64,000 bases of DNA from Acrocarpospora phusangensis. GTDB taxonomy: Bacteria; Actinomycetota; Actinomycetes; Streptosporangiales; Streptosporangiaceae. Within the stretch, counting starts at the first letter, position 1. Every line of letters starts with the position of its first letter. Location of the stretch: assembly GCF_016862995.1 (NCBI RefSeq), contig NZ_BOOA01000003.1:1-64000 (forward strand). Direction: 5' to 3'. The position numbers were made by a program, and so were the translations under genes. Below the pieces are notes generated by a model, which had not been told where the DNA came from, did not search any database, and saw only the letters and a program-made list of their open reading frames with translations. This document shows, piece by piece, positions 3,243 to 23,412 of this stretch.

Positions 3243-3420
3243 CTTCCTCCCTCTCCTAAAGGAGGGGGAGTCCCACCTTCACAGGTGAGCTTTCCCGCTT
3301 CACCGCCGATCGCCGAAGGGAGGACCCTTGCGGTCTCACATCAGCTCCACGGGCCGACACGGCAAGACCTGCCGCCAGGATGTTCTTCGCGGCGTTGACG
3401 TCCCTGTCGTGCAGGGTGCC
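3243..3420 (-). ncRNA. Predicted omega RNA of the TnpB element (approximate)
   Basis: In known TnpB systems the guide RNA scaffold comes from the 3' part of tnpB plus the right end, and the guide is the flanking host DNA. Here the scaffold would end at the right-end hairpin (about 3246-3270) and the following TCAA, and the guide would start at 3238 on the minus strand (TCGATTCCGTTTCGCTGG, inside the beta-glucosidase gene). The 5' limit is a guess. This is inferred from family behaviour; only the hairpin and TCAA are seen. Confidence 0.35.
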
Positions 3421-4455
3421 GCATCCCGGGCACGTCCAGTGCCGGGTGCTCAGCGACAGCGCGGGAAGCAGATGCCCGCACGCCGAGCAGGTTTTCGAGC
3501 TGGGGAGCCAGCGGTCGATCACGATCAGGTGGCGTCCGTATTTCGCGGTCTTGTACTCCAGCATGCGGCGGAAGGCGCCCCACCCGCAGTCGGAGATCGC
3601 CTTCGCCAGCGACCGGTTACCGGCCATGCCCCTGACGTTCAGGTCTTCGATCACGATCACGTCGTGGTCGCGGACCAGGCGGGCGCTGGTCTTGTGCAGG
3701 AAATCGGCGCGGGCCGCTTTCACCTTCCGGTGGGCGCGGGCGACCTTGGCCTTGGCCTTGGCCCGGTTGGCCGATCCGGTTTGCTTGCGGGCCATGCGCC
3801 GCTGGTAGCGGGCCAGGCTCGCAGCTCTGCGCTCCAGGTGGCGCGGGTTGGCGATCTTCTCCCCTTCCGAGGTGACCGCGAAGTCCTTGATCCCCACGTC
3901 AACACCCACCATGGCGCCGGTCGTGGGAGCCTGCTCGGGTTCCGCGACGTCCACGGCGAAGGACACATACCAGCGTCCGCACGGGTCACGCGAGATGGTC
4001 ACCGTGGTCGGGTCGATCGCTGCGGGGTCGATGCCGGGCCAGGACCACACGAAGGCCAGCGGCGTGTCCATCTTCGCCAGCAACAGCCGCCCGTCGCGGT
4101 AGCGGAAACCCGAACGGGTGTACTCCGCGCTCTGACGGCCGTTGCGGGACTTGTAGCGCGGGTAGCGGGTGCGCCCGGCGAAGAAGCTGGTGAACGCCAC
4201 CTGCTGGTGGCGGATCGCCTGCTGCAACGGGACCGAGGACACCTCGTTCAGCCATGCGGTCTCGCTGCCGGCTTTCATCGCCGTCAGGTGGGCGTTGGCC
4301 TGCACGAAGTTGGTCTTGACCTGCTCGCGGTGGAAGCGCTGGTGCCGCCAGGCGAGGGTCTGGTTCCATACGAAGCGGACGCAGCCGAAGGTGCGGTTCA
4401 GCACGCTGGCCTGTTCGGGTGCCGGGTAGGCCCGGCACTTGTACGCCGTCCGCAT
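3256..4455 (-). CDS. tnpB: TnpB RNA-guided nuclease (IS605 OrfB family)
   Basis: A 399-aa TnpB of normal length. The N-terminal OrfB motif (YKCRAYPAPEQ) is followed by a split RuvC domain with all three acidic residues: Asp186 in GVDVGIKDFA, Glu270 in VIEDLNV and the DRD at 350-352 before VNAAKN. A zinc finger (CSACG and CPGCG) lies between the last two. TnpB proteins are omega-RNA-guided DNA nucleases that cut the empty site and help retain the element. The start ATG at 4455 is chosen because residues further upstream would come from the antisense of the LacI gene. The stop codon lies inside the right-end hairpin, as is usual. Confidence 0.92.
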   Translation of the reverse strand: MRTAYKCRAYPAPEQASVLNRTFGCVRFVWNQTLAWRHQRFHREQVKTNFVQANAHLTAMKAGSETAWLNEVSSVPLQQAIRHQQVAFTSFFAGRTRYPRYKSRNGRQSAEYTRSGFRYRDGRLLLAKMDTPLAFVWSWPGIDPAAIDPTTVTISRDPCGRWYVSFAVDVAEPEQAPTTGAMVGVDVGIKDFAVTSEGEKIANPRHLERRAASLARYQRRMARKQTGSANRAKAKAKVARAHRKVKAARADFLHKTSARLVRDHDVIVIEDLNVRGMAGNRSLAKAISDCGWGAFRRMLEYKTAKYGRHLIVIDRWLPSSKTCSACGHLLPALSLSTRHWTCPGCGTLHDRDVNAAKNILAAGLAVSARGADVRPQGSSLRRSAVKRESSPVKVGLPLL

Positions 4456-4557
4456 AAAATTGACTTTACTGAATCCATCTGCTTTGGATAAGCCGAACGC
4501 CGTGGCTCCGGCTTTCCTCCCCGCTCTGAAGGACGGGGTCTCCACCTTGAGGTACCG

Positions 4558-5553
4558 ATGAAACGTCCTACCTTGGAGGCCGTGGCCGCCAGGGCCGGTG
4601 TGTCCAAGTCCACTGTCTCCCGGGTCGTGAACGGTGACACGACGGTGACCCCCGACTTCCGCGAGGTCGTGCTGCGCGCGGTCAACGAGCTGGGCTACGT
4701 GCCCAACTCGGTGGCCCGCAGCCTGGTCACCCAGCGGACCAACTCGATCGCGCTCATCGTCTCCGACCCTCCCGCCGGGCTGTTCTCCGACGATCCGATG
4801 TTCTCCGCCGTGGTCCGGTCGGCCAGCCGGGCCCTGGAGGCGGCCAGCAAACAGGTCGTGCTGATGCTGGCCGGCTCGGACGAGAGCCGCCTGCGGGTGC
4901 AGGAGTACATCGCCGCCGGGCACGTGGACGGCGTCATGCTGGTCTCCTTCTACGGCGCCGATCCGCTGCCCGCGGCGCTGGTACGCATGGGGTTGCCGAT
5001 CGCGTCGTTCGGGAAACCGGTGTCGGCGCCGTCCATGCCGTACGTGGACAACGACAACCACGACGGCGCCGCCCAGGCCGTACGGCATCTGCTGGAGCGG
5101 GGGCGGCGGCGGATCGCGACCATCTCCGGGCCGCTGGACATGATCGCGGCCCAGGACCGGCTGACCGGCTACCGGGACACGCTCCGGGACACCGGCAGGC
5201 GCTCGATCATCGCGGTCGGGGACTTCACCCGGGTCTCCGGCGACCAGGCGATGGGCCAGCTGCTGGAGGACGACCCGGGGCTCGATGCGGTGTTCGCGGC
5301 CAACGACCTGATGGCGATCGGGGCGCTGCACGCGCTGCGGCGGGCGGGCCGGCGGGTCCCCGACGACGTGTCGGTGGTCGGCTACGACGACATCGAGGCG
5401 GCGCTCTACACCGATCCGCCGCTGACCACGGTGCGCAGCCCGATGGCCGACCAGGCGCTGGCCGTGGTCAGCCAGCTGCTGGGCCTGTTCGAGGGCGGGT
5501 CACCCGATCCCGTCATCATGCCGACGGAACTGGTGGTGAGGGAGTCGAGCTAG
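4558..5553 (+). CDS. LacI-family transcriptional repressor
   Basis: A 331-aa sugar-responsive regulator. The N-terminal helix-turn-helix is classical (TLEAVAARAGVSKSTVSRVV, residues 4-23), followed by the hinge helix (NSVARSL) and a periplasmic-binding-protein-like effector domain from about residue 60 (NSIALIVSDP). It probably represses the permease/beta-glucosidase operon upstream. The ATG lies 7 nt after the TnpB element, and its ribosome site GAGG (4549-4552) straddles the element border. Before insertion the gene would have followed the beta-glucosidase stop codon by only 7 nt. Confidence 0.92.
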   Translation: MKRPTLEAVAARAGVSKSTVSRVVNGDTTVTPDFREVVLRAVNELGYVPNSVARSLVTQRTNSIALIVSDPPAGLFSDDPMFSAVVRSASRALEAASKQVVLMLAGSDESRLRVQEYIAAGHVDGVMLVSFYGADPLPAALVRMGLPIASFGKPVSAPSMPYVDNDNHDGAAQAVRHLLERGRRRIATISGPLDMIAAQDRLTGYRDTLRDTGRRSIIAVGDFTRVSGDQAMGQLLEDDPGLDAVFAANDLMAIGALHALRRAGRRVPDDVSVVGYDDIEAALYTDPPLTTVRSPMADQALAVVSQLLGLFEGGSPDPVIMPTELVVRESS

Positions 5554-5634: not shown

Positions 5635-7011
5635 ATGTCCGTAAAGCTCGGATTGGTGGATCTGCGGGACGCCGAATACTCCTACCTCGACGCGCGGGGG
5701 CACGTCTACCTCGACTACACGGGGTCCGGGCTGCCCTCGCGTCACCAGATCCGCGCCCACGCCGAACGGGTGATCGGCGGCTGCTACGGGAATCCGCATT
5801 CCCAGAACCCCACCTCCAGCGCGGCGACCGCCCTGGTGGACGGCGCGCGGGCGGCCATCCTCGCCTATTTCAACGCCTCTCCCGACGAGTACGCGGTGAT
5901 CTTCACCGCCAACGCCACCGGGGCCTGCCGGCTGGTCGGCGAGGCCTATCCGTTCGGCCCGGAGACCCGGCTCGTGCTGACGAGCGACAACCACAATTCG
6001 ATCAACGGCATCCGCGAGTACGCGCGAGCGCGCGACGCCGAGGTCACGACCATCGGAATGGTCAGCCCCGAACTGCGGGTGGACGAGGGCGAACTCCTCT
6101 ACGCGCTGGACGGCACCCGGGGACTGCTCGCTTTCCCCGCCCAGAGCAATTTCACGGGTGTCCAGCATCCGCTGCGCTGGGTCAGCGAGGCGCGGGCGCG
6201 CGGCTACGACGTGCTGCTCGACGCCGCCGCCTTCGTGCCCGCCAACCGGCTCGATCTCAGCGTGATCCGTCCGGACTTCGTGCCGGTCAGCTGGTACAAG
6301 ATCTTCGGGTATCCGACGGGCGTCGGGTGCCTGATCGCGCGCCGCGAGGCCCTGTCGCGACTTATCCGTCCATGGTTCGCGGGCGGCACGATCAAGGCCG
6401 TCAGCGCGTACGGCAACTGGCATGTCTTCAACGAGGACGAGAGCGCGTTCGAGGATGGCACCCTCAACTTCCTGTCCATCCCCGACGTGGAGGTCGGGCT
6501 GGCCTGGATCGCGGCGATCGGCATCGACGCCATCCACGATCATGTGACCCGGCTGACCGGGGTGCTGCTGGACCGGCTCACGTCCTTACGCCACCGGAAC
6601 GGCGCGCCCTTCGTGAGCGTGTACGGCCCTACGGACACGCGTGATCGCGGTGCCACCGTCACCTTCAACTTCCGTACGCCCGAGGGTGACGTCGTCGACG
6701 AGCGCGATGTGGCACGTTCCTCGGCCGCTGCCGGCATATCGCTGCGGACCGGCTGCTTCTGCAATCCGGGGGCCGGTGAGGGAGCGTTCGCCATTGACGA
6801 GACTTTGCTGGCGGGGCCGTACTTCCATGCCGATCTGACCCTGGATGACTATCTGCACGCCCTGGGGTTGCCCAGTGGGGGAGCCGTCCGGGTTTCCCTC
6901 GGGCTGGCGTCCAATGTCGCGGACATCGACCGTTTCATCGAGTTCGCGACCGAGGCGTATCTGAACCGGGTGCCGGACTACGCGGACCTCGCGCCGCGTC
7001 TGCGCTGCTGA
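5635..7011 (+). CDS. Class V aminotransferase-fold protein, MOCOS-like
   Basis: A 458-aa PLP enzyme of the cysteine desulfurase superfamily, closest by motif to the N-terminal domain of molybdenum cofactor sulfurase. Seen: YLDYTGSG near residue 22, NPHSQNPTS, the PLP lysine in SWYKIFGYPTGVG (Lys222) and the active-site cysteine loop RTGCFCNPGA (Cys374/Cys376). MOCOS-type enzymes move sulfur from cysteine to Mo cofactor. No MOSC domain follows, so the acceptor is unknown. ATG 5635 is chosen because GGGGAG precedes it, although the spacing of 3 nt is short; in-frame ATGs at 5575 and 5608 lack a ribosome site. Confidence 0.8.
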   Translation: MSVKLGLVDLRDAEYSYLDARGHVYLDYTGSGLPSRHQIRAHAERVIGGCYGNPHSQNPTSSAATALVDGARAAILAYFNASPDEYAVIFTANATGACRLVGEAYPFGPETRLVLTSDNHNSINGIREYARARDAEVTTIGMVSPELRVDEGELLYALDGTRGLLAFPAQSNFTGVQHPLRWVSEARARGYDVLLDAAAFVPANRLDLSVIRPDFVPVSWYKIFGYPTGVGCLIARREALSRLIRPWFAGGTIKAVSAYGNWHVFNEDESAFEDGTLNFLSIPDVEVGLAWIAAIGIDAIHDHVTRLTGVLLDRLTSLRHRNGAPFVSVYGPTDTRDRGATVTFNFRTPEGDVVDERDVARSSAAAGISLRTGCFCNPGAGEGAFAIDETLLAGPYFHADLTLDDYLHALGLPSGGAVRVSLGLASNVADIDRFIEFATEAYLNRVPDYADLAPRLRC

Positions 7012-7016
7012 GCGGC

Positions 7017-7442
7017 TCAGCGGTGGAGGGACCACTCGACGCCGGGGCAGCGGTTCATGACCACGTCGAGGCCGGCGGCCTGGGCGCGGAGGGCGGACGG
7101 GACGTCGATGACGTCTAAGGGGAGCCAGATGGCGCCGGCCTTGATGGTGATCGCCTGGGTGATGGGTTCCGCGGCGTGGGCGGAGCGGCGGTAGACGGCC
7201 ACGACGTCGACGGGGCCGGGAATGTCGAGCAGGGTGGGGTAGCCCTTCTCGCCGAGGACGGTCTCCGCCAGCGGGTGCACGGGCACGATGGTCCGGCCGC
7301 GTCGCTGGAGGAGCCTGGCCTGGTCGTACGCGGTCCGGCTGGGGTTGTCCGACAGCCCGACGAAGGCCCAGGTCTGGGCGTCGTGCAGGAGTCGCCGGAT
7401 GACGGTCAGGTCGGCGAAACGATCGCCCGCGCGGGGGTCCAT
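7017..7442 (-). CDS. CoA-binding protein (YccU-type Rossmann fold)
   Basis: A 141-aa single-domain protein. The segment WAFVGLSDNPSRTAYDQA near the N-terminus is the nucleotide-binding turn of the CoA_binding family, followed by the typical TIVPVHP and a C-terminal NRCPGVEW. Biochemical role is unknown; relatives bind CoA. The gene converges with the MOCOS-like gene, 5 bp apart. GAAGGAG lies 2 nt before the chosen ATG, which is close, so an upstream in-frame start (ATG 7475) remains possible. Confidence 0.8.
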   Translation of the reverse strand: MDPRAGDRFADLTVIRRLLHDAQTWAFVGLSDNPSRTAYDQARLLQRRGRTIVPVHPLAETVLGEKGYPTLLDIPGPVDVVAVYRRSAHAAEPITQAITIKAGAIWLPLDVIDVPSALRAQAAGLDVVMNRCPGVEWSLHR

Positions 7443-7742
7443 GGCTCCTTCAACATCGGGGACGCCGAGAACCATCCAGGGCCGCGAACCCGGCTGTTCA
7501 GATCGTCCTCCCCATTCGCACATATTCGGAAAAATGCGCTGATGACAATGCCCCCGCACCACGAGCCACACCGGCAGTCAACGCGGATACGAGTAATATT
7601 CACCTCCGGTCGAGGCCCAGGTGAGAGGCCACTTCACGGCCGCACCCGTGATGTTTGCCCATGCGTCATTGGTTGAATTTGTAACTAGGAACTCATCGGG
7701 TTATCCGTAATTCTCTCTGTAGAGGAAAGCAGGGAGATGGCC
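7443..7742. other. Intergenic region upstream of the lanthipeptide operon
   Basis: About 300 bp between divergent genes. It is less GC-rich than its surroundings near 7660-7715 and must hold the promoter of the lanthipeptide operon, but no convincing -35/-10 pair or regulator palindrome was found. AGGGAG at 7731-7736 is the only clear ribosome site. Confidence 0.5.
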
Positions 7743-10202
7743 GTGAATGACCAGTATGAACTTTATTGCCTGGTGGACCGGCTTTTTTATGACACGCCGG
7801 ACAACCGACGGTCCCAGCACCCCGATTTCCCGGTGGCGGACCGGGAGGTGCCGGCCGGTTGGGAGCACCAGCCCAGCGACACCTGGATGCACTACGCGCC
7901 GGAGACCCGGCAGATCGCCAAGCAGGGCTGGAAGATCCACGTTTCCGCCCGGCTGGAGGACGCGAACCGGGCACTGGCCGCCGTCTGGGACTACTGCGTC
8001 CCCCGCGACATCCCGTTCAAGTTCCTGCGCAGCGCCCCGGTCGTCACCATGTTCAACTCCAAAGCCGCCTCCCGCGGCGCGAGCGGCAAGCTAATCACGA
8101 TATATCCGCTCGAATCGGAGCTTGAGCTGGCGCTCAAGGAGCTCGACACGCTCCTGCGCGGCATCCAGGGCCCCTACATCCTCAGCGACCTGCGCTACGC
8201 CGACGGCCCGCTCTACGTCCGGTACGGCGGCTTCGTCGCCCGCCACTGCCTCAGCGGCAACGGCGAACAGGTCACCGCGATCGAGAACGCCGACGGCGAC
8301 CTCGTCCCCGACGTCCGCGGCCCCGCCTTCACGGTCCCGCCCTGGATCCCCCTGCCGGAGTTCCTCGAACCCCACCTCAAGGCCAGGAACACCGTCACCA
8401 CCGGCGACCTGCCGTACGACATCGAGCAGGTCATGCACTTCTCCAACGGCGGCGGCGTCTACCTCGGCCGGGACCGGCGCACCGGCGAGCGGGTGGTGCT
8501 CAAGGAGGCCAGGCCGTACGCGGGACTGGACGCCGGCGGACGGGACGCGGTCACCCGACTCCAGCACGAACGGGACATGCTGCGTCGCCTGACCGGCCTG
8601 GACGCGGTCCCGGAATACCGCGACTACCTCACCCTCGGCGAGCACCACTTCCTCGTCATGGAGTTCGTGGACGGGAACCCGCTCCAGCGCCAGCTGGTCC
8701 ATCGGTACCCGCTGACCAGGGCCGACTGCTCGATGGAGAGCCTGGCCGAGTACACGGCGTGGGTGCTGGAGACGCTGCCCAAGGTCCGCGCCGCGGTCGA
8801 GTCGCTGCACGGGCGCGGCGTGGTCTTCGGCGACCTGCACCCGAACAACATCCTGGTCACCGAGACCGGCCGGGTGGTCCTGATCGACTTCGAGGTGGCC
8901 ATGCCCGTCGAAGCCCAGGGCCGGTCACTGCTCGCGCACCCCGCCTTCCAGGCCCCGCCGGACCGGCGCGGCGCCGACGTCGATCTCTACTCGCTGGCCT
9001 GCCTCTGCTTCGGCCTGTTCGCCCCCCAGGCGACCATCATGCTCCCGCTCACCCAGAACAAGATCACCCAACTGGCCCGCCTGATCACCACGACCTTCCC
9101 GGTCCCTCCGGAGACCATCGAAACCGCCCTGCGCACCATTCGCGGCACCGCGGACGACCTGCCCTACGGCTGGCCGTCCGGTCCGGCCGCGATGGTCCGG
9201 GCGATCCTGGCGACCGCCACGCCCGGTCGCCAGGATCGGCTCTTCCCCGGGGACATCGCGCAGTTCCGGCCGGGCGGCGGCATCAACGTCGCGTACGGCG
9301 CGGCCGGCGTGCTCTACGCGCTGGACGCGGCCGGCGCCGGGCGGTATCCCGACCACGAGGAATGGCTGCTGGACAGGGCCGCGCGGCCCGAGCCCGGCAC
9401 CCCGCCCGGCTTCTACGACGGCCTGCACGGCGTCGCCCACGTGCTCGACCGGTTCGGGCATCGGCGGACCGCCCTCACCCTGGTCGACCGGGCGATGTCC
9501 GAAGCCTGGCGGCGGCTGGACACCGGCCTGGCCACCGGACTGGCCGGAATCGGGCTGAACCTGCTCCACCTCGGGCTGGACGCGCAGCCGATCATCGAAG
9601 CCTGCGTCGACCGCTTACCGGCCGACGTGCCCGAACTGAGCGGCGGCGCCAACCCCAGGGCCGGGCTCATGCACGGCGCGAGCGGCTCCGCCCTGCTGTT
9701 CCTGCACGCCTACGAGCGAACCGGCCAGAGCGTGCTGCTCGACCTCGCCGAGCAGGCGCTCCGGCAGGATCTGCGGCGATGCGTCCGCACCCAGGACGGT
9801 TCGCTCCAGGTCAACCAGGGCTGGCGCACGCTGCCGTACCTGGAGGAGGGGTCGGTCGGGATCGCTCTCGTGCTGGCCCGATACCTCACCCACCGGCCCG
9901 ACGAGGAACTGCGCGCGGATCTGGACGCGCTGCTGCTCGTCACCCGGTCCCGCTACTTCGTGCAGCCCGGCCTGTTCGCCGGCCGGGCGGGCCTGGTCCT
10001 CGCCGAACCGGGGCTGATCCCCGGCCTGGACTGGCATGCCCTTCCCTACCGGGACGGACTCGCGTTCCCCGGTGACCAGCTGCTCCGCATCTCGATGGAT
10101 TTCGCCACCGGGACCGCGGGCGTGCTGTTCGCCGTGAGCGGCGCTCCGCTCCCCTTCCTGCGACCGCCTGGCGATCCCGCCGGTTCAGGGGCGCCCCTGT
10201 GA
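7743..10202 (+). CDS. lanKC: Class III lanthipeptide synthetase LanKC
   Basis: An 819-aa three-domain enzyme that phosphorylates Ser/Thr in the precursor, eliminates phosphate and forms (methyl)lanthionine or labionin rings. Residues 1-200 are the lyase-like domain (YELYCLVDRLFYDTP, FKFLRSAPVV, NSKAASRGASGK). The kinase domain spans about 220-500, with the ATP lysine in VVLKEARP (about 256), the catalytic loop FGDLHPNN (about 362) and DFE in place of DFG. The C-terminal cyclase-like domain lacks the CHG/Cys zinc ligands of classes I, II and IV, which defines class III. GTG 7743 is preferred to ATG 7737: AGGGAG abuts the ATG directly but lies 6 nt before the GTG. Confidence 0.93.
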   Translation: MNDQYELYCLVDRLFYDTPDNRRSQHPDFPVADREVPAGWEHQPSDTWMHYAPETRQIAKQGWKIHVSARLEDANRALAAVWDYCVPRDIPFKFLRSAPVVTMFNSKAASRGASGKLITIYPLESELELALKELDTLLRGIQGPYILSDLRYADGPLYVRYGGFVARHCLSGNGEQVTAIENADGDLVPDVRGPAFTVPPWIPLPEFLEPHLKARNTVTTGDLPYDIEQVMHFSNGGGVYLGRDRRTGERVVLKEARPYAGLDAGGRDAVTRLQHERDMLRRLTGLDAVPEYRDYLTLGEHHFLVMEFVDGNPLQRQLVHRYPLTRADCSMESLAEYTAWVLETLPKVRAAVESLHGRGVVFGDLHPNNILVTETGRVVLIDFEVAMPVEAQGRSLLAHPAFQAPPDRRGADVDLYSLACLCFGLFAPQATIMLPLTQNKITQLARLITTTFPVPPETIETALRTIRGTADDLPYGWPSGPAAMVRAILATATPGRQDRLFPGDIAQFRPGGGINVAYGAAGVLYALDAAGAGRYPDHEEWLLDRAARPEPGTPPGFYDGLHGVAHVLDRFGHRRTALTLVDRAMSEAWRRLDTGLATGLAGIGLNLLHLGLDAQPIIEACVDRLPADVPELSGGANPRAGLMHGASGSALLFLHAYERTGQSVLLDLAEQALRQDLRRCVRTQDGSLQVNQGWRTLPYLEEGSVGIALVLARYLTHRPDEELRADLDALLLVTRSRYFVQPGLFAGRAGLVLAEPGLIPGLDWHALPYRDGLAFPGDQLLRISMDFATGTAGVLFAVSGAPLPFLRPPGDPAGSGAPL

Positions 10203-10258
10203 CCGGACGCCGAGCGGCACCCGTACCGACCAGCGATCGAAGGAGGTGACACACGCAC

Positions 10259-10393
10259 ATGGTTCTTCTCGACCTCCAGGCGATGGAAGTTCCCGGCGGT
10301 GGCCACGGCCACGGCGGGGGCGGCAGCACGCTGACCCTGCTCGGCTGCCAGTCGAACTCGCCGAGCAACCTGAGCCTTCTGCTCTGCCACTGA
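10259..10393 (+). CDS. lanA1: Class III lanthipeptide precursor, copy 1
   Basis: A 44-aa precursor peptide with an ideal AGGAGGTGA ribosome site 9 nt upstream. Residues 1-12 (MVLLDLQAMEVP) contain the LLDLQ recognition motif of class III leaders. A Gly/His linker follows (GGGHGHGGGG, 13-22), then a core with two ring motifs: Ser23-x2-Thr26-x3-Cys30 and Ser36-x2-Ser39-x3-Cys43, each fitting a labionin or lanthionine, with Thr26 giving a possible methyl form. The architecture resembles RamS (SapB) and flavipeptin precursors. The likely leader cut is after Pro12 by the prolyl oligopeptidase of the cluster. The only other proline, Pro35, sits between the rings. Confidence 0.95.
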   Translation: MVLLDLQAMEVPGGGHGHGGGGSTLTLLGCQSNSPSNLSLLLCH

Positions 10394-10433
10394 TGACGCT
10401 TCCGAAATCCCCCGATAAAGAAGGAGCACGATC

Positions 10434-10568
10434 ATGGTTCTTCTCGACCTCCAGGCGATGGAAGTTCCCGGCGGTGGCCACGGCCACGGCGGCGGTGGGA
10501 GCACGCTGACCCTGCTCGGCTGCCAGTCGAACTCGCCGAGCAACCTGAGCCTGCTGCTCTGCCACTAG
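10434..10568 (+). CDS. lanA2: Class III lanthipeptide precursor, copy 2
   Basis: It encodes a 44-aa peptide identical to the first copy, starting 175 bp further on. The two genes differ at four synonymous positions (three Gly codons at residues 20-22 and one Leu codon at 41) and in the stop codon (TAG versus TGA). It has its own AAGGAG 7 nt upstream. The duplication presumably raises precursor supply, since both copies give the same product. A strong hairpin follows 10 nt after the stop. Confidence 0.95.
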   Translation: MVLLDLQAMEVPGGGHGHGGGGSTLTLLGCQSNSPSNLSLLLCH

Positions 10569-10578
10569 GACGAGTCCC

Positions 10579-10609
10579 CGAGCCCTGAGCTGCCCCAGCT
10601 CAGGGCTCG
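10579..10609 (+). terminator. Hairpin between precursor genes and exporter
   Basis: A perfect 14-bp stem (CGAGCCCTGAGCTG with its complement) closed by a 3-nt CCC loop, without a T run. Its position just after the second precursor gene and before the ABC genes fits an attenuator or mRNA-stabilising structure that keeps precursor transcript above exporter transcript, as in other lanthipeptide operons. Confidence 0.75.
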
Positions 10610-10639
10610 GCCCGTCCGTGTTTCGCGGAAGGAGAGCCG

Positions 10640-12265
10640 GTGCGTACCGCGGATCAGCTGGTGGCCGGGGCGATCAGGCGCGGCGGCCCGGCCGTCGGGG
10701 TCCTGGCCGTGACCTCGGTGGCCGGGGGGGTGCTCGCGCTGGCCCTGCCGTACGCGCTGGGGCGGGCCGCCGACGCGAGGTCCGGGGGCTGGCTCGCCGG
10801 GTGCGTCGCGGTCGTCGGGCTGCTGGTCGTCTGTGACACATTCGGGGTGTGGGCGGGAGGCGCGAGCGGGGCGCGGGCCTCGGCCTGGGTGCGGCACCGG
10901 GTGCTGCGGCATGTGCTCGGGGTCGGGCCGGGATTGACCCGGTCGGTGCCGGAAGGCGATCTGGTGACCCGGCTCGGGATGAACGCGGAAGAGGTCGGGC
11001 GTGCCCCGGATGCCGCGATCACCGGCGCGACCATGCTCATTCCGGCGGTGGGCAGCCTGGTGGCGCTCCTGCTCATCGATCCCTGGCTGGCGCTGACGCT
11101 GGTGGCCGGGCTCACACTGATCATGCTGGTCCTGCGGGCGTTCCTGCGGGTCTCGACCGCGCTGGCGGGGGACTACCAGGAGGCGCAGGCCGACATCGCG
11201 TCCCGGCTGGTGGACGCCGTCGCCGGGGCCAGGACCATCGCCGCCGCCGGCACCGCCGCCCAGGAGACCCGCCGCGTGCTGTCGGCGCTGCCGCGGGTCC
11301 GCGCGCACGCCCTGGAGCTGTGGCGGGTGCGCGCCCAGGCGGGGGTGCGGGCCGCCGTGGTGGTCCCGCTGCTCGAAGTGTGCGTGCTCGGCGTCGGCGG
11401 GTACCGCCTCGCCGCCGGCGACCTGACCGCCGGTGAACTGTACGCCTCCGCCCGCTATGTCGTCCTCGGCGCCGGCCTCGGCTCCGCCCTCGGCTACGTC
11501 AGCCAGGTCGCCCGTGCCCGCGCCGCCGCCCGCCGCCTGGTCCGGCTCCTGGACGAATGCCCGGCTCCCCATGGCGTACGGCGCCTGCCCGACGGACCCG
11601 GCGTCCTCGTCTTCCACGACGTGATGGCCCGCGGCCTCCACATCCCCGACCTGACGATCCCCGGCGGCTCCGCCGTCGCCGTCGTCGGCCGCTCCGGCTC
11701 CGGCAAATCCCGCCTCGCCTGCCTGGCCGGCCGCCTCGCCGACCCCGCCAGAGGCCAGGTCCTCCTCGACGACGTCCCCCTCAACCGCCTGTCCCGTACG
11801 GCCCTGCGCGAAGCGATCGGCTACGCCTTCGAGCGCCCCTGCCTGGTCGGGGACACGGTCGCCGACGCCATCGGACCCTCGGCAGAACAGGCCGCCCAGG
11901 CCGCGGGGGCCGACGCGTTCATCAGGCGGCTCCCGTCCGGGTACGCCACGCCGCTCGCCGACGCGCCCATGTCCGGCGGCGAACGCCAGCGCGTCGGCCT
12001 GGCCCGCGCGTTCGCGCACGGCGACCGGCTGCTGGTGCTGGACGACGCCACCTCCAGCCTGGACACCATCACCGAGCACCAGGTGGGGGCCGCGCTGGCG
12101 GCGGATCGCCGTACCCGTCTGATCGTCACGCACCGGGCCGCCATGGCGGCCCGCGCGGACCTGGTCGTCTGGCTGGAGCGGGGCCGGGTGCGCGGCTACG
12201 ACCGGCACGACCGGCTGTGGCGCAATCCGGACTACCGCGCGGTCTTCCAAGGAGAGGCGTCATGA
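10640..12265 (+). CDS. Lanthipeptide ABC exporter subunit 1 (membrane + ATPase)
   Basis: A 541-aa fused transmembrane-ATPase half-transporter, RamA/RamB-like, expected to export the lanthipeptide. About five or six membrane segments fill residues 1-300. The ATPase carries Walker A GRSGSGKS (about 355), a good signature MSGGE and H-loop VTHRA, but Walker B ends LVLDD: the catalytic Glu is Asp. This half therefore contributes the degenerate ATP site's Walker motifs and the functional signature. GTG 10640 is preceded by GGAAGGAG. The gene overlaps the second subunit by ATGA. Confidence 0.9.
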   Translation: MRTADQLVAGAIRRGGPAVGVLAVTSVAGGVLALALPYALGRAADARSGGWLAGCVAVVGLLVVCDTFGVWAGGASGARASAWVRHRVLRHVLGVGPGLTRSVPEGDLVTRLGMNAEEVGRAPDAAITGATMLIPAVGSLVALLLIDPWLALTLVAGLTLIMLVLRAFLRVSTALAGDYQEAQADIASRLVDAVAGARTIAAAGTAAQETRRVLSALPRVRAHALELWRVRAQAGVRAAVVVPLLEVCVLGVGGYRLAAGDLTAGELYASARYVVLGAGLGSALGYVSQVARARAAARRLVRLLDECPAPHGVRRLPDGPGVLVFHDVMARGLHIPDLTIPGGSAVAVVGRSGSGKSRLACLAGRLADPARGQVLLDDVPLNRLSRTALREAIGYAFERPCLVGDTVADAIGPSAEQAAQAAGADAFIRRLPSGYATPLADAPMSGGERQRVGLARAFAHGDRLLVLDDATSSLDTITEHQVGAALAADRRTRLIVTHRAAMAARADLVVWLERGRVRGYDRHDRLWRNPDYRAVFQGEAS

Positions 12266-13926
12266 GGGCCGCCGCGCGGGTGCTGGCGCGGGCGGTGACG
12301 CGGGAGCCCGGGCGGGCGGCGCGGCTGGCCGCCTGGTCGGTGGCGGAGGTGGCGCCGTCGTTCGTGATCGGGCTGGCGCTGGCGGGCGCCATCGACGACG
12401 GCTTCGGGGCCGGCGAGCCGATGGTCGGGCTGGTCTGGGTCGGCGTGCTGGGTCTGTCGTGGGTGGTGGCGGCGGTGGGCGCGCGGCAGGCGCTGATGGC
12501 GCTGGCCGGGATCGTGGAGCCGTTCCGGGAGCGCCTGGCCGCCGGGGTCGTGCGGGACGCGCTGGCGGGCGGACGGGTGGAGGCCGCCGCCGTGACCCGG
12601 TCGAACCTGCAGGTGGAGGTGGCCAGGGACGCCTTCGCGACCGTGCTCGGCGTGCTGCGGTCCTTCGTGTTCACGCTGGTCAGCGTCGCGTTAGGGCTGG
12701 CGGCGCTGATGCCGGAGGTGCTGGTCTTGGTGCTCGCGCCGTTCGCGCTCGGGCTCGGGCTGTTCCTGCTGTCGCTGCCCGCGCTGGCCCGGCGGCAGCG
12801 CGCGTTCCTCGTGGCCGACGAGCGGACCACGGAATGGGTCACGGTGGCGATGGGCGCGTTGCGGGACGTCACCGCCTGCGGCGCGGAGGAGCGTACGGGT
12901 GAGCTGGTCGGACGCCGGATCGACGAGCAGGCCGCGGCGGCGGGGACACTCGCCCGGGTCACCGCCGTACGGACCTTCGCGCTCGGTCTCGGCGGCTGGG
13001 CCCCGGTGCTGCTGGTCCTGGCCTTCGCGCCCGGCCTGGGGGCGAGCCCCGGCATGGTGGTCGGGATCGTGGCCGCCGTCCTGCAGTCTTTGACTCCTGC
13101 GCTGAACGGCCTGGTGGAGGGGCTCGGTGTGAGCGGGGTCCGGCTGATGGTCACCCTGGAGCGGCTCATGGGCGACCGTCCGGCGGCGGGTCCCGACCGG
13201 CTGACCCCGCCGGACGTACGAGTCGAGCTGTCCGGGGCGACCTTCCGGTACGGACCTCACGCGGACCCCGTCGTCTCGGACCTCGACCTGACCGTGCCGG
13301 AGGGCGAGCATCTCGCCGTCGTCGGCCCGAGCGGAATCGGCAAATCCACCCTGGCCGCCCTCATCACGGGGTTGGTCCAGCCCGGCGAAGGCACGGTCAC
13401 CGTCGGCGGCGTGGCCGCGGAGCGGGTGGACCCGGCCGCGCGGGTGCTCATCCCGCAGGAGGCGTACGTGTTCCGCGGCACGCTCTGGGACAACCTCACC
13501 TACCTGTCGGTCGCCTCGGAGTCCCGGGTCGACGGCGCGGTGGCGGAGGTCGGCGCGGACGGGCTGGTCCAGCGGCTCGGGGGCTACCAGGCCGAGATCC
13601 ACGCGGCGGAGCTGACCCCGGGGGAACGGCAGCTGGTCGCGTTGGTCCGCGCCTACCTGTCGCCGGCACGCCTCACGATCCTGGACGAATCCACCTGCCA
13701 CCTCGATCCCGCCGCGGAGGCCCGCGCGGAGGAGGCGTTCGCCCGCCGGGGCGGCACCCTGATCGTCATCGCCCACCGCCTCACCTCGGCCATGCGCGCC
13801 CAGCGCATCCTCGTCCTGGACGGCGCGGAAGCCGTCTCCGGCACCCACGCCGACCTTCTTCGCACGTCTCGCCTCTACGCCGACCTCGCCGGCCAGTGGG
13901 ACCCCGACCTGGAGCAGGTGTCATGA
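12262..13926 (+). CDS. Lanthipeptide ABC exporter subunit 2 (membrane + ATPase)
   Basis: The 554-aa partner half-transporter. Membrane segments span about 20-300. Walker A is GPSGIGKST, Walker B has the catalytic Glu (LTILDEST), and the H-loop is IAHRL, but the signature reads LTPGE instead of LSGGE. Combined with subunit 1 this makes one consensus ATP site (Walker motifs here, signature there) and one degenerate site, the usual pattern of heterodimeric exporters. It is translationally coupled at both ends (ATGA with subunit 1 and with the peptidase). Confidence 0.9.
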   Translation: MRAAARVLARAVTREPGRAARLAAWSVAEVAPSFVIGLALAGAIDDGFGAGEPMVGLVWVGVLGLSWVVAAVGARQALMALAGIVEPFRERLAAGVVRDALAGGRVEAAAVTRSNLQVEVARDAFATVLGVLRSFVFTLVSVALGLAALMPEVLVLVLAPFALGLGLFLLSLPALARRQRAFLVADERTTEWVTVAMGALRDVTACGAEERTGELVGRRIDEQAAAAGTLARVTAVRTFALGLGGWAPVLLVLAFAPGLGASPGMVVGIVAAVLQSLTPALNGLVEGLGVSGVRLMVTLERLMGDRPAAGPDRLTPPDVRVELSGATFRYGPHADPVVSDLDLTVPEGEHLAVVGPSGIGKSTLAALITGLVQPGEGTVTVGGVAAERVDPAARVLIPQEAYVFRGTLWDNLTYLSVASESRVDGAVAEVGADGLVQRLGGYQAEIHAAELTPGERQLVALVRAYLSPARLTILDESTCHLDPAAEARAEEAFARRGGTLIVIAHRLTSAMRAQRILVLDGAEAVSGTHADLLRTSRLYADLAGQWDPDLEQVS

Positions 13927-15860
13927 CATATCCGTACGCGGAACGCCAGCCCATCGTGGACGTCGTCCACGGTCACCGGATTGAGGATCCGTACCGCTGG
14001 CTGGAGGACCCGGCCAGTCCGGAGACCGAGAAATGGCTGGCAGCCCAGGACGAGCTGTGGCGCGGCCACTCCCTGCCGGCGCGCAGCCGCCTCCGCACCC
14101 GGATCGCCGAACTCACCGCCGTCGGCGTGACCGGCGTGCCCACCTGGCGCGGCGACCGCGCCTTCCGCGTCCGCCGCGACCCCGGCCAGGAGCACGCCAT
14201 CCTGTACGTCGGCGTCCCCGGCCTCCCGTCCGAGCTGGACTGGCGGGTGGTGCTCGACCCGATGATGGTCGACCCCGCGGGCACGACCACGCTGGACGAG
14301 TGGCATCCCTCGCCCGACGGGAAGCTCGTCGCCGTGCAGCTCTCCCGCCGCGGAGCCGAACGCGCCCAGCTCTACGTGCTGGACGTGATGACCGGCGAGA
14401 TCGTGGACGGCCCGGTGGGGGACTGCCGGTACTCGCCGGTGGCCTGGCTCCCGTCCTCGGACGCGTACTACTACATCGGCGGACGAGTGGCCCATCTGCG
14501 GCGCATCGGGGGAGAAGACCACGCCCTGGTCGAAGCGGACGGCCTCGCGCTCAGCGCGGACGGGCGATGGCTCACCCTCTCCACCAACCACGGGACCGGC
14601 AACGACATCCAGCTGTGCGACCTGGCCGGGTCGCGCTGGCGGGAGATCCCGGGCGACGGCGCCAAGACGGCCGTCAACGTGGCGGCGGACGGGCGGCTCT
14701 ACGTCGCGACCACGCGGGACGCGCCCCGGGTGCGGCTCGCCGTCGCCGATCCCGGCGATCCGGAGCACTGGCGGGATCTCGTGCCGGAGGATCCGGAGGC
14801 CGTACTCACCGATTTCGCATTGCTCGACGGCGCGTTGCTGGTCGCCAGGATCAGGCACGCGATCGGCGAGATCAATGTGCACGACCCCGTGACCGGGGAG
14901 TGGAGAAGCGCGGTTCCGCTTCCCGGTCACGGTTCCATCGGGCGGATGTCCGCGCGTGGGCACGAGTGCTGGTTCACGTACGCGGACTATGTGACGCCGG
15001 AGAGCGTGTACCGGTACGACGCCCGTACGGGGGAGACGACGCTCTGGGAGGGCGCGCCCGGGCGGGCCCGGCTGCCGGAGGTCGAGTCGCACCAGATCGA
15101 GTATCCGTCCGCCGACGGGACGCTGATCCGCATGGTGGTGCTGTCCGGTCCCGCCACCGGTCCCCGGCCATGCATCTTGTACGGCTACGGGGGATTCGGG
15201 GTGCCGTTGACTCCGGCGTACTCGAGCTATGTCCTGCCCTGGATCGAGGCGGGGGGAGTGTTCGCTTTCGCGCAGATCCGCGGCGGCGGCGAAGAAGGCG
15301 AAGACTGGCATCGCGCCGGCACCCTCAACCGGAAACAGAACGTCTTCTCTGATTTCGCCGCCGCCGCGGAAGCTCTGATCGCCCGCCGCTGGACCACGCC
15401 CGAACGGCTGGGCATCTGCGGCGAGTCCAACGGCGGGCTGCTCGTCGGCGCGATGCTCACCCAGCGCCCCGACCTGTTCGCCGCCGCCGTCTGTTCCGCC
15501 CCCGTCCTCGACATGGCCCGCTACGAGCTCTCCGGCCTAGGCCCCCGCTGGCGCGCCGAGTACGGCTCCGCCGCCGACCCCGACGCCCTCGCCTGGCTTC
15601 TTGGCTATTCCCCTTATCACCACGTACGCGAGGGAGTGCGGTACCCCGCGACCCTTTTCACGGTCTTCGGGGGGGACACCCGGGTCGATCCCCTGCATGC
15701 CCGGAAGATGTGCGCCGCCCTGCAACACGCCACCGCCGGTCCCCGTCCGATCCTGCTCCGCCATGAGCCCGAGGTGGGTCACGGCGGCCGTGCGGCCAGC
15801 CGTTCCGTCGACCTGGCGGCCGACATGCTGGCCTTCTTCACCGCTCATCTCCGATGCTGA
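13923..15860 (+). CDS. Prolyl oligopeptidase (S9A), probable lanthipeptide leader peptidase
   Basis: A 645-aa serine peptidase: an N-terminal S9 segment (DPYRWLEDP, about residue 20), a seven-bladed propeller, and a C-terminal alpha/beta-hydrolase domain. The nucleophile is Ser502 in GESNGG, the acid lies in GGDTRVDP (about 585), and the base is His in VGHGG near the end. Prolyl oligopeptidases cut after proline in short peptides. A homologue, FlaP, removes the leader in the flavipeptin class III pathway, and here Pro12 of the precursor is the obvious site. No signal peptide is seen, so cutting is cytoplasmic. It is the last gene of the operon, overlapping the exporter by ATGA. Confidence 0.9.
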   Translation: MTYPYAERQPIVDVVHGHRIEDPYRWLEDPASPETEKWLAAQDELWRGHSLPARSRLRTRIAELTAVGVTGVPTWRGDRAFRVRRDPGQEHAILYVGVPGLPSELDWRVVLDPMMVDPAGTTTLDEWHPSPDGKLVAVQLSRRGAERAQLYVLDVMTGEIVDGPVGDCRYSPVAWLPSSDAYYYIGGRVAHLRRIGGEDHALVEADGLALSADGRWLTLSTNHGTGNDIQLCDLAGSRWREIPGDGAKTAVNVAADGRLYVATTRDAPRVRLAVADPGDPEHWRDLVPEDPEAVLTDFALLDGALLVARIRHAIGEINVHDPVTGEWRSAVPLPGHGSIGRMSARGHECWFTYADYVTPESVYRYDARTGETTLWEGAPGRARLPEVESHQIEYPSADGTLIRMVVLSGPATGPRPCILYGYGGFGVPLTPAYSSYVLPWIEAGGVFAFAQIRGGGEEGEDWHRAGTLNRKQNVFSDFAAAAEALIARRWTTPERLGICGESNGGLLVGAMLTQRPDLFAAAVCSAPVLDMARYELSGLGPRWRAEYGSAADPDALAWLLGYSPYHHVREGVRYPATLFTVFGGDTRVDPLHARKMCAALQHATAGPRPILLRHEPEVGHGGRAASRSVDLAADMLAFFTAHLRC

Positions 15861-15871
15861 TTTCCGGTTGG

Positions 15872-16309
15872 TCAGGCACAGGCCATCTCGAACCAGACCT
15901 TGTTCCGTCCGGCCTCGCGGACCATGCCCCAGCGGGCGGAGAGGGCGTCCAGCAGCGGCAGGCCCCGGCCGCTGGAGGCGTTCGGGAGGGAGTGGCCGGC
16001 GCATGGCGGGCTGGCCGATCCCTCGTCCTGGACGCACACCCGGACCCGGCCGCGCGGGAAGGTCACGGTCACCGTGAACTCGCCGCCGTCGCCCGACCGG
16101 GAGTGCACCACCGCGTTGGTGGCGATCTCGCTGGTCAGGAGCACGCAGTCGTCATGTAAAGGGTGGTCGCGCCCGAGTGTCGCCGATACCAGGCGCCGGG
16201 CCTGCACCACCTGATCCCGGCCCCCCGCCAGTCGTGCCTCTACGTTTCCGACCTTCCGGACCTTCTCGACAGTGCTGGTGATCCCCATCTCGTTCCCCGA
16301 CCCGTTCAT
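15872..16309 (-). CDS. Anti-sigma regulatory factor, RsbW-like ATP-binding protein
   Basis: A 145-aa single-domain HATPase_c protein. Seen are the N-box (LLTSEIATNAVVHS), the G1 box (VCVQDEG) and the G2 region (SSGRGLPLLDALS), ending in WFEMA. Such stand-alone kinase-like proteins bind or phosphorylate anti-anti-sigma partners, and actinomycetes carry dozens. No cognate sigma or anti-anti-sigma factor is adjacent, so the target is unknown. AGGAGG precedes the ATG. It is convergent with the lanthipeptide operon. Confidence 0.85.
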   Translation of the reverse strand: MNGSGNEMGITSTVEKVRKVGNVEARLAGGRDQVVQARRLVSATLGRDHPLHDDCVLLTSEIATNAVVHSRSGDGGEFTVTVTFPRGRVRVCVQDEGSASPPCAGHSLPNASSGRGLPLLDALSARWGMVREAGRNKVWFEMACA

Positions 16310-16512
16310 GACCCCTCCTATGGCCGTGCAATGAAGACGCTCGGGCAGCGGTCTTGAGATGTCGCGAGAAGGTAGGAGTTGGCTTCCCTGATAGATCCGG
16401 TTAGTCCGGGATGTGAGGCTTGTGGCGGCGGGGTGGTTCTGGTGCGGGTATGTCTTGGTAGAGGTGTGCCGTTTGTGGGGGTGTTTGGTTAGCCTGTGGG
16501 TGGAGGTGGCTC

Positions 16513-16710: not shown

Positions 16711-16737
16711 CCGGTGGTTCCCCCCACCACCCTTTGT

Positions 16738-16936
16738 CGAGCTGGCGCCCCGCCCGTCTTCCGGCACTCGCCGGTATGCCGGGCATAGCCTGCGGCCCAC
16801 CCCTTTTCGAGCTAGCGCTCTGCCCCTTTTCCGGCACTCGCCGGTATGCTGGGCATAGCCTGCGGCCCACCCCTTTCGAGCTGGCGCTCTGCCCTTTTCC
16901 GCGCTCGCCGGTATGCCCGGCATTGGCTGCGGTGGT
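16738..16936. repeat. Three tandem copies of a ~69-bp GC-rich repeat
   Basis: Units begin with CGAGCTGGCGC at 16738, 16808 (CGAGCTAGCGC) and 16877 and share CCGGCACTCGCCGG, a palindromic core, then GGCATAGCCTGCGGCCCACC. The third unit changes into GGCTGCGGTGGTTCTCCC. The same words recur in the large array at 22.7-23.4 kb, so both belong to one dispersed family. The rest of the 430-bp gene-free stretch 16711-17139 shows no gene. Confidence 0.8.
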
Positions 16937-22730: not shown

Positions 22731-23412
22731 CTCTCCCACCCACCTTTGCGAGTCGGAGCTTCACCCGCTGGCTGGCCGCATGCCTGGTATTGCTTGCGGT
22801 GGTTCTCCCCACCCGCCCACCCTTCGTCTTGCCGGGTTGACCAACCATCGCCGGGTGCGCCATGTCTGGGCACAGCTGCGCCGGTTCCGTGTTTGCGCTG
22901 GCGGTGGCTGTCCCCGCCCACCCACCCTTTTGCCGCTGCGCGGCGTCTTGGCCGGTCACCGCAGCGAGAGGTCGCGCAGCGGCCAAAAGGGGTGGGCGAA
23001 CCACCGCAAGCAATACCGGCATGCGGCCAGAGCCGAAGGGGTCCGAGCGCCAGCCCACAAAGAGTGGGCGGGCGGGAGAACCACTGCAAGCAATACCGGG
23101 CTACGGCCAGCCAGCGGGCGAAGCTCCAACCCACAAAGGTGGGTGGGCTGGAGAACCACCGCAAGCAATACGGGTATGCGGCCAGAGCCGGAGGGGGGCC
23201 GAGCGCCAGCTCACAAAGGGTGGGCGGGCGGGAGAACCACCACAAGCAACACCAGGCATGCGACCAGCCAGCGGGCGAAGCTCCAACCCACAAGGTGGGC
23301 GGGCTGGAGAACCACCGCAAGCAATACGGGCATGCGGCCAGAGCCGGAGGAGCGCCGAGCGCCAGCTCACAAAGGGTGGGCGGGTGGGGAGAACACCGGC
23401 ACCCACGAACGT
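22731..23412. repeat. Palindromic array of alternating ~80-bp and ~75-bp repeat units
   Basis: A core of GAACCACCGCAAGCAATAC recurs at 22998, 23078, 23153, 23234 and 23309, with a degenerate copy at 23392; the intervals are 80, 75, 81, 75 and 83 bp. Two unit types alternate: A has AGAGCCGGAGG and GAGCGCCAGCTCACAAAG, B has AGCCAGCGGGCGAAGCTCC. An inverted B copy occupies 22731-22812, and a second inverted pair (CCCTTTTGCCGCTGCGCG near 22930; CGCGCAGCGGCCAAAAGG near 22975) lies between them. The long open frames here are repeat artefacts. 23413-23605 holds the promoter region of the next gene without a clear motif. Confidence 0.85.

Follow-up and report, generated by a model that had tools for sequence, protein, structure and literature searches.

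The window analysed here, a stretch of 64,000 nucleotides from the soil actinomycete Acrocarpospora phusangensis (a genome of 9.1 Mb in 219 contigs), carries six genes in the same direction on the + strand between positions 7737 and 15860. They encode a class III lanthionine synthetase (LanKC), two precursors of 44 aa with identical protein sequence, a pair of ABC exporter halves (T1 and T2) and an S9A prolyl oligopeptidase (POP) (table 1). An earlier note, made from the letters of this DNA, had described LanKC, a duplicated precursor, an exporter and an S9A peptidase as a complete class III lanthipeptide cluster in one operon, with a dedicated POP; translation and family profile searches recover each gene where it was placed and support that description. 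The note had counted three ATGA overlaps, of which we find two, at 12262 (T1/T2) and 13923 (T2/POP), and the remaining gaps between the six genes, from their coordinates, are 56, 40 and 71 bp.

Table 1. Genes and putative control elements of the lanthipeptide operon (positions in the window).
Feature	Position	Strand	Evidence and remarks
Promoter-like element TGTAACTAG	7680-7688	+	57 bp before LanKC start codon 7737; putative function
LanKC, class III lanthionine synthetase (lyase RamC_N, kinase, LanC-like cyclase)	7737-10202	+	821 aa; alternative start 7743
LanA1 precursor	10259-10393	+	44 aa; PF19402, NF033212 over cut-off
LanA2 precursor	10434-10568	+	44 aa, protein identical to LanA1; translation
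Perfect hairpin, 15 bp, without T run, between LanA2 and T1	10578-10610	+	RNA folding
T1, ABC exporter half (membrane domain and ATPase)	10640-12265	+	541 aa, GTG start; PF00664, PF00005
T2, ABC exporter half (ATPase)	12262-13926	+	554 aa; PF00005
LanP, S9A prolyl oligopeptidase (FlaP-like)	13923-15860	+	645 aa; PF02897 (Peptidase_S9_N), PF00326 (Peptidase_S9)

Synthetase, exporter and genomic context

LanKC passes the curated model NF038151 with 1032.8 bits (cut-off 575) and scores 377.5 bits against the class IV model NF038150, under its cut-off of 650. Its domains match PF25816 (RamC_N), PF00069 (protein kinase) and PF05147 (LANC_like), and solved homologues are 8sao and 8sam (LanKC) and 9ugq (SalKC). 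The zinc-ligand motifs of LanC-like domains are WC[YF]G and C[HG]G; neither occurs in this LanKC, as expected for class III. The start codon is ambiguous, since ATG 7737 and GTG 7743 are both kept in seven aligned relatives; the start at 7743 preferred in the earlier note is the better spaced from an AGGGAG just before 7737. Two more LanKC-like synthetases are encoded in the same genome (G000:C13:78078-80681, L170, and G000:C23:24756-27287, L171); they score 467 and 458 bits, below the LanKC cut-off of 575, and are perhaps class IV enzymes.

T1 has the Walker B motif LLVLDD and the signature MSGGE, while in T2 we read the signature LTPGE and a Walker B of the form ..ILDE. The Pfam membrane domain gave no match in T2, yet hydrophobic stretches are present there. 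The exporter looks asymmetric, with a motif pattern that we take to be that of heterodimeric exporters with one degenerate site, and a family profile search found no peptidase domain in either half.

Among named relatives, LanKC is closest to that of Acrocarpospora corrugata and of A. macrocephala (86% each). The same operon is present in A. corrugata, A. macrocephala, A. pleiomorpha and A. catenulata. Its large genes are each 84-89% identical in three congeners (L032-L034) and 72-79% in a fourth (L035), and this recurrence argues that the gene set is not a product of chance. Flanking genes encode a LacI-family regulator, a class V aminotransferase and a CoA-binding protein on one side and a HATPase_c_2 protein on the other. 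In all four named Acrocarpospora loci that were compared, the cluster has these flanks again, at varying distance, and two Herbidospora loci have them without the aminotransferase; the six genes were therefore treated as the unit. We conclude that the cluster is real and complete, and it is probably functional. A literature search for Acrocarpospora with lanthipeptide found nothing.

Several neighbouring features were observed in passing. The LacI-family regulator (4558-5553, +) is 92-98% identical in the four Acrocarpospora and two Herbidospora loci, where the other genes compared are only 63-92% identical, and is thus unusually constrained. A TnpB gene is listed at 3256-5331 (-) (guided_TnpB NF040570, 347.8 bits, cut-off 100); for the most part, the first ~290 codons of this reading frame overlap the LacI gene on the other strand, and they probably do not encode protein, and a match to the Rfam antisense RNA Sernc389 (3674-4267, +, 128.2 bits) also lies opposite TnpB. 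Intergenic tandem repeats occupy 22990-23398 and 16727-16932, with 75/156-bp and 70-bp units. The first 121 bases of the first array match the genome at 23 places, of which several lie in the window and others on different contigs; this is a dispersed repeat family.

Precursor peptides and core

LanA1 and LanA2 differ at the DNA level by four silent changes and a different stop codon. Having two identical precursors sets the cluster apart from that of flavipeptin in Kribbella flavida. Among 99 precursor-bearing loci (contig-end-cut loci included), 38 have two or more precursors, and 11 have identical ones. The peptide scores 54.8 bits with RamS PF19402 (cut-off 24.3) and 58.7 bits with SapB/AmfS NF033212 (cut-off 25), and an LxLQ leader and two S-x2-[ST]-x3-C motifs place it in the SapB/AmfS family. 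We divide it provisionally into a leader (residues 1-12), a Gly/His linker (13-22) and a core (23-44). The two motifs, S23-T26-C30 and S36-S39-C43, read from the translation as the earlier note had them. Its four dehydration sites are correct for the motif Ser and Thr, and T24, S32 and S34 are further core Ser/Thr. An Sx2Sx3C motif is described as giving lanthionine or labionin (PMC7268733), so the methylation through Thr26 that was predicted for one ring applies only if the first ring uses T26; as that source describes it, a lanthionine would join the first Ser to the Cys and leave Thr26 outside the ring.

Across the 83 precursors found at 59 POP-positive loci, the core has 22 residues with S23, L25, T26, C30, S32, P35, S36, S39, C43 and H44 invariant, and positions 31, 33 and 34 vary; these precursors were picked by their leader and a Cys and not by their core, although the Streptosporangiaceae loci themselves were found by similarity to this precursor. 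The earlier note took the core to differ from known ones including that of flavipeptin. This is not supported, since the same type is present in 22 Kribbella-group loci and in all 83 precursors, and we rejected the idea of a novel core; the likeness to flavipeptin is read from these Kribbella-group loci. Ser32, Pro35 and His44 lie outside both ring motifs and therefore probably have a further role, and a histidinobutyrine through the invariant His44 is possible.

The linker from Pro12 to Ser23 varies among the same 83 precursors, with 8-15 residues of changing letters, and contains His in 66 of them. Noursin (NorKC, NorP) is likewise a class III lanthipeptide with an S9 family peptidase in its cluster, and is reported to bind copper (PMC10206099). 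A product that is antimicrobial or metal-binding, rather than morphogenetic, would fit the linker histidines and this precedent, but we consider it unlikely: the linker lacks the fixed length and letters of the core, and the synthetases of noursin reportedly form a LanKC group of their own (PMC10206099). By description noursin also differs in having one Cys, a labionin plus histidinobutyrine and an LELQEL leader. A copper-binding N-terminus, with His third after Pro12, was considered as a role for the linker and found weak, because this arrangement is rare where the POP is present (5/83, vs 26/47 of the type B precursors that have Pro12 but no POP) and because the linker varies.

SapB has the gene order ramCSAB. 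The cluster resembles SapB and AmfS in its curated precursor family, LanKC, two ABC halves and two S-x2-[ST]-x3-C motifs. It differs from them in its POP, its core and the lack of a LuxR-type (RamR-like) regulator among the five flanking genes scanned, and its Gly/His linker contrasts with the charged leader end of SapB-like Streptomyces rows L141-L143. SapB is described as the most common precursor family (PMC7268733).

Distribution of the cluster POP

At E 1e-3, 73 of the 200 genomes searched in the family, that of A. phusangensis among them, have a precursor relative of either core type; they come from 25 of 68 genera. When 396 genomes drawn across the phylum were searched at the stricter E 1e-5, the A. 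phusangensis genome itself was the one match, and the draw so supplied no independent pair of POP and core. For comparison we took 73 stretches for the family and 52 found by LanKC from named genomes; 50 of the 52 (L105-L154) were compared, L155 and L156 being left out as short matches of 28 and 26% identity. The resulting 124 loci (123 and the window), minus 13 second copies of the same genomes, 6 cut by a contig end and 11 without a leader-pattern precursor, leave 94. One locus without a precursor by that pattern, L064, nevertheless has a POP.

Of these 94 usable loci, 59 have the POP (37 Streptosporangiaceae and 22 of the Kribbella group) and all of them have the core described above, here called type A. 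The other 35, which lack a POP within the stretch fetched, comprise 26 with a type B core (C.PHENSSLS) and nine with other cores, so that no locus is discordant. The Kribbella group consists of 20 Kribbella loci, one Nocardioides and one record titled Streptomyces sp. SID13031. As the loci are related and were found via this precursor and LanKC, the 59 are not independent events, and the association may go back to one ancestral gain.

Eleven further POPs were found by similarity to the general POP, three falling inside the cluster-POP clade and eight outside it. Two of the three, from a Kribbella (L241) and Nonomuraea soli (L243), lie beside a LanKC, an exporter and a type A precursor. The exception is L242 (G210:C5, N. 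soli), a long-branched POP of the cluster clade without a LanKC in 18 kb, in a genome that also has two POP clusters with LanKC (L135 and L243). Near the eight POPs outside the clade, no LanKC match was found in the 18-19 kb fetched.

POPs have been reported in related settings: FlaP-like proteases accompanying homologues of FlaA in Kribbella, Streptomyces, Amycolatopsis and Jiangella (PMC8960859), a POP as LanPB in pneumococcal clusters (PMC7268733) and, in a figure legend, POP in class III clusters together with a leader proline (PMC5719810). The Kribbella group, of flavipeptin type, shares with the A. phusangensis cluster the catalytic residues of the POP, a homologous leader proline and, in all 22 loci, the core type. 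Its gene order is KC-A-POP-T1-T2, vs KC-A-A-T1-T2-POP here, and its exporter halves are 46-51% identical to T1 and T2 and belong to another clade. The POP-less Streptosporangiaceae clusters (e.g. L134, Planotetraspora thailandica) share the leader, with Pro12 in 47 of 49 precursors, the Gly/His linker and the exporter clade, but differ in their C-x-PHENSSLS core and in having no POP within the stretch fetched.

Conflicting gene histories

Trees were quick ones, made without bootstraps on chosen rows. For LanKC (61 rows), a single clade (98) unites the POP-positive Streptosporangiaceae with the Kribbella group and leaves 18 POP-less rows outside it; joining the two Streptosporangiaceae groups instead is rejected (AU p 0.006). 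For the exporter (57 rows, without the Kribbella rows L118, L120 and L150), the two Streptosporangiaceae groups join (100) with the Kribbella group outside, and joining the POP-positive group with Kribbella is rejected (AU p 5e-5); in both cases the groups were named after the identities had been seen, for which the AU test does not allow. Four more distant POP-less loci (L098, L099, L100 and L102) lie elsewhere in both trees. Long branches are L052 and L135 for LanKC, L098 for the exporter and L231, L052, L236 and L044 for POP, and Kribbella rows L127, L137, L152 and L154 have an odd letter make-up in the exporter tree, which could push the Kribbella group outward. The cluster POPs of both groups form one clade (98; 99 with a wider POP set), apart from the general POP. 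We dropped the view of them as its sister, as the wider set does not resolve that fork. Given the conflict between the LanKC and exporter trees, the simplest reading would be a joint move of LanKC, core and POP between the groups, each of which kept or recruited its own local exporter.

The POP and leader removal

Among solved structures, the cluster POP matches prolyl endopeptidases (2bkl, E 4e-125). The catalytic residues Ser502, Asp585, His620, Trp543 and Arg587 are kept in 63/63 cluster POP rows (62 distinct, as L035 = L136) and in 32/32 general POPs aligned. The N-terminus has no hydrophobic stretch (top mean hydropathy -0.05 among 15-residue windows that begin at positions 1-45), and the enzyme is therefore probably cytoplasmic.

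FlaP is described in a review as cutting modified FlaA after Pro(-12), efficiently only when modified (PMC10885120), and by this precedent a cut after Pro12, as the earlier note proposed, is the most likely first cleavage. In precursors of the Kribbella group, for example L119, the homologous proline is at -12, with the first Ser of the core 11 residues further on; here it is at -11. Pro12 is present in 83/83 POP-positive precursors, in the type B precursors at the rate given above and in 4/9 others, which makes 51/58 for POP-less precursors together; we therefore rejected it as a signature of the cluster POP. Being about as conserved without the POP, it is in itself no proof that the POP cuts there.

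The genome also encodes a general POP (G000:C55:36564-38597, L177), 54-60% identical to the cluster POP; on the same contig a peptidase M1 gene, one of four matches in the genome, is ~11 kb away. A POP of 63-91% identity to this general POP is present in 60/60 family genomes searched (32 POP-less by label, 23 POP-positive and 5 without a precursor match). General POPs could thus serve the POP-less clusters, and the cluster POP is perhaps neither the sole nor an essential protease. Carried further, this leads to a scheme in which the general POP or an AplP-like M1 peptidase removes the leader, while the cluster POP trims, recycles or degrades peptides. Removal by a general protease must happen in the POP-less sister clusters, which keep Pro12, and AplP reportedly also processes the precursor of flavipeptin (PMC12328550). 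We nonetheless judge the scheme quite improbable here, given that the POP is present in 59/59 usable loci with this core and 0/35 others (related loci, perhaps one gain), goes with LanKC and core where the exporter's history differs, and has in FlaP a reported precedent as leader protease (PMC10885120).

Leader cleavage by the cluster POP thus remains our preferred reading. That the enzyme also acts as a proofreader, destroying unmodified precursor at the hinge Pro35 until Ser36 is held in a ring and only Pro12 is cleavable, strikes us as very improbable. Pro35 does stand directly before the ring residue Ser36 in 83/83 POP-positive precursors found, and proofreading would account for the POP going with LanKC and core, not with the exporter, and for the reported preference of FlaP for modified peptide (PMC10885120).

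Upstream element and hairpin

The motif [TC]GT[AG]ACT[AGT]G occurs within 150 bp upstream of lanKC in 34/38 POP-positive Streptosporangiaceae loci and is often shared by those labelled POP-less (18/35, a label that includes four contig-end-cut loci, of which L040 and L078 have type A cores). It occurs in 0/22 Kribbella-group and 0/7 outgroup loci, and its rate in shuffled sequences is 0.0065. In 48 of 52 loci it lies 56-60 bp before the start codon, and it agrees with a local form of control in Streptosporangiaceae. A scan for sigma-70-type promoters over 7000-16400 found nothing, as might be expected if the cluster were silent or decayed in this strain. We hold this to be extremely improbable: all frames are open, the catalytic residues are present, the genes are 72-89% identical to those of congeners and the upstream element is conserved.

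The region between LanA2 and T1 (10569-10639) folds with an MFE of -42 kcal/mol (z -5.6), and 0/200 shuffles were as good; a T-run terminator scan over 7000-16400 found nothing, the hairpin included. Perfect stems of at least 9 bp follow the last precursor in 22/39 POP-positive Streptosporangiaceae, 7/30 labelled POP-less and 9/22 Kribbella-group loci, with shuffle rates of 0.17-0.45% over these three sets (0.26% for the first). They also follow it in 4/7 outgroup loci (2.1% in shuffles) and in the one unlabelled locus (5%). The hairpin may stabilize or limit the mRNA, keeping the precursor above exporter levels.

Proposed product and its relevance

We are highly confident in the following reading as a whole: the operon would make a flavipeptin-type class III lanthipeptide of the SapB/AmfS family, which the POP would cut after Pro12, T1/T2 would release and which most likely serves a SapB-like role. 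LanKC would bind the leader (LLDLQ), phosphorylate and eliminate core Ser/Thr (S23, T26, S36 and S39, perhaps more) and form two rings through Cys, of lanthionine or (methyl)labionin type. The POP would then cut after Pro12 to give a peptide of at most 32 residues with a Gly/His N-terminal tail, which a general aminopeptidase may trim toward Ser23; the M1 peptidases could do so. With four dehydrations, the calculated monoisotopic masses are 2958.398 for residues 13-44 and 2228.108 for residues 23-44. The T1/T2 exporter would release the peptide, the order of cutting and export being our assumption. Most likely the product is an amphiphilic, SapB-like surface or morphogenetic peptide, a role that we take from the family. 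Durhapeptin is reported to be morphogenetic (PMC13380574).

The cluster belongs to an already described type (flavipeptin/SapB-like) that is common in Streptosporangiaceae, and is mostly ordinary. New here are the core signature, the association of POP and core with an uninformative leader proline, the conflict between the histories of LanKC/POP and exporter, the upstream element and the hairpin. The flavipeptin-type peptide, known from Kribbella, is now placed within a trait common in Streptosporangiaceae, and its sharp core signature is usable for genome mining. The two related cluster types, with the same leader and with or without a cluster POP, form a natural pair that makes the question of leader removal in class III lanthipeptides directly testable.
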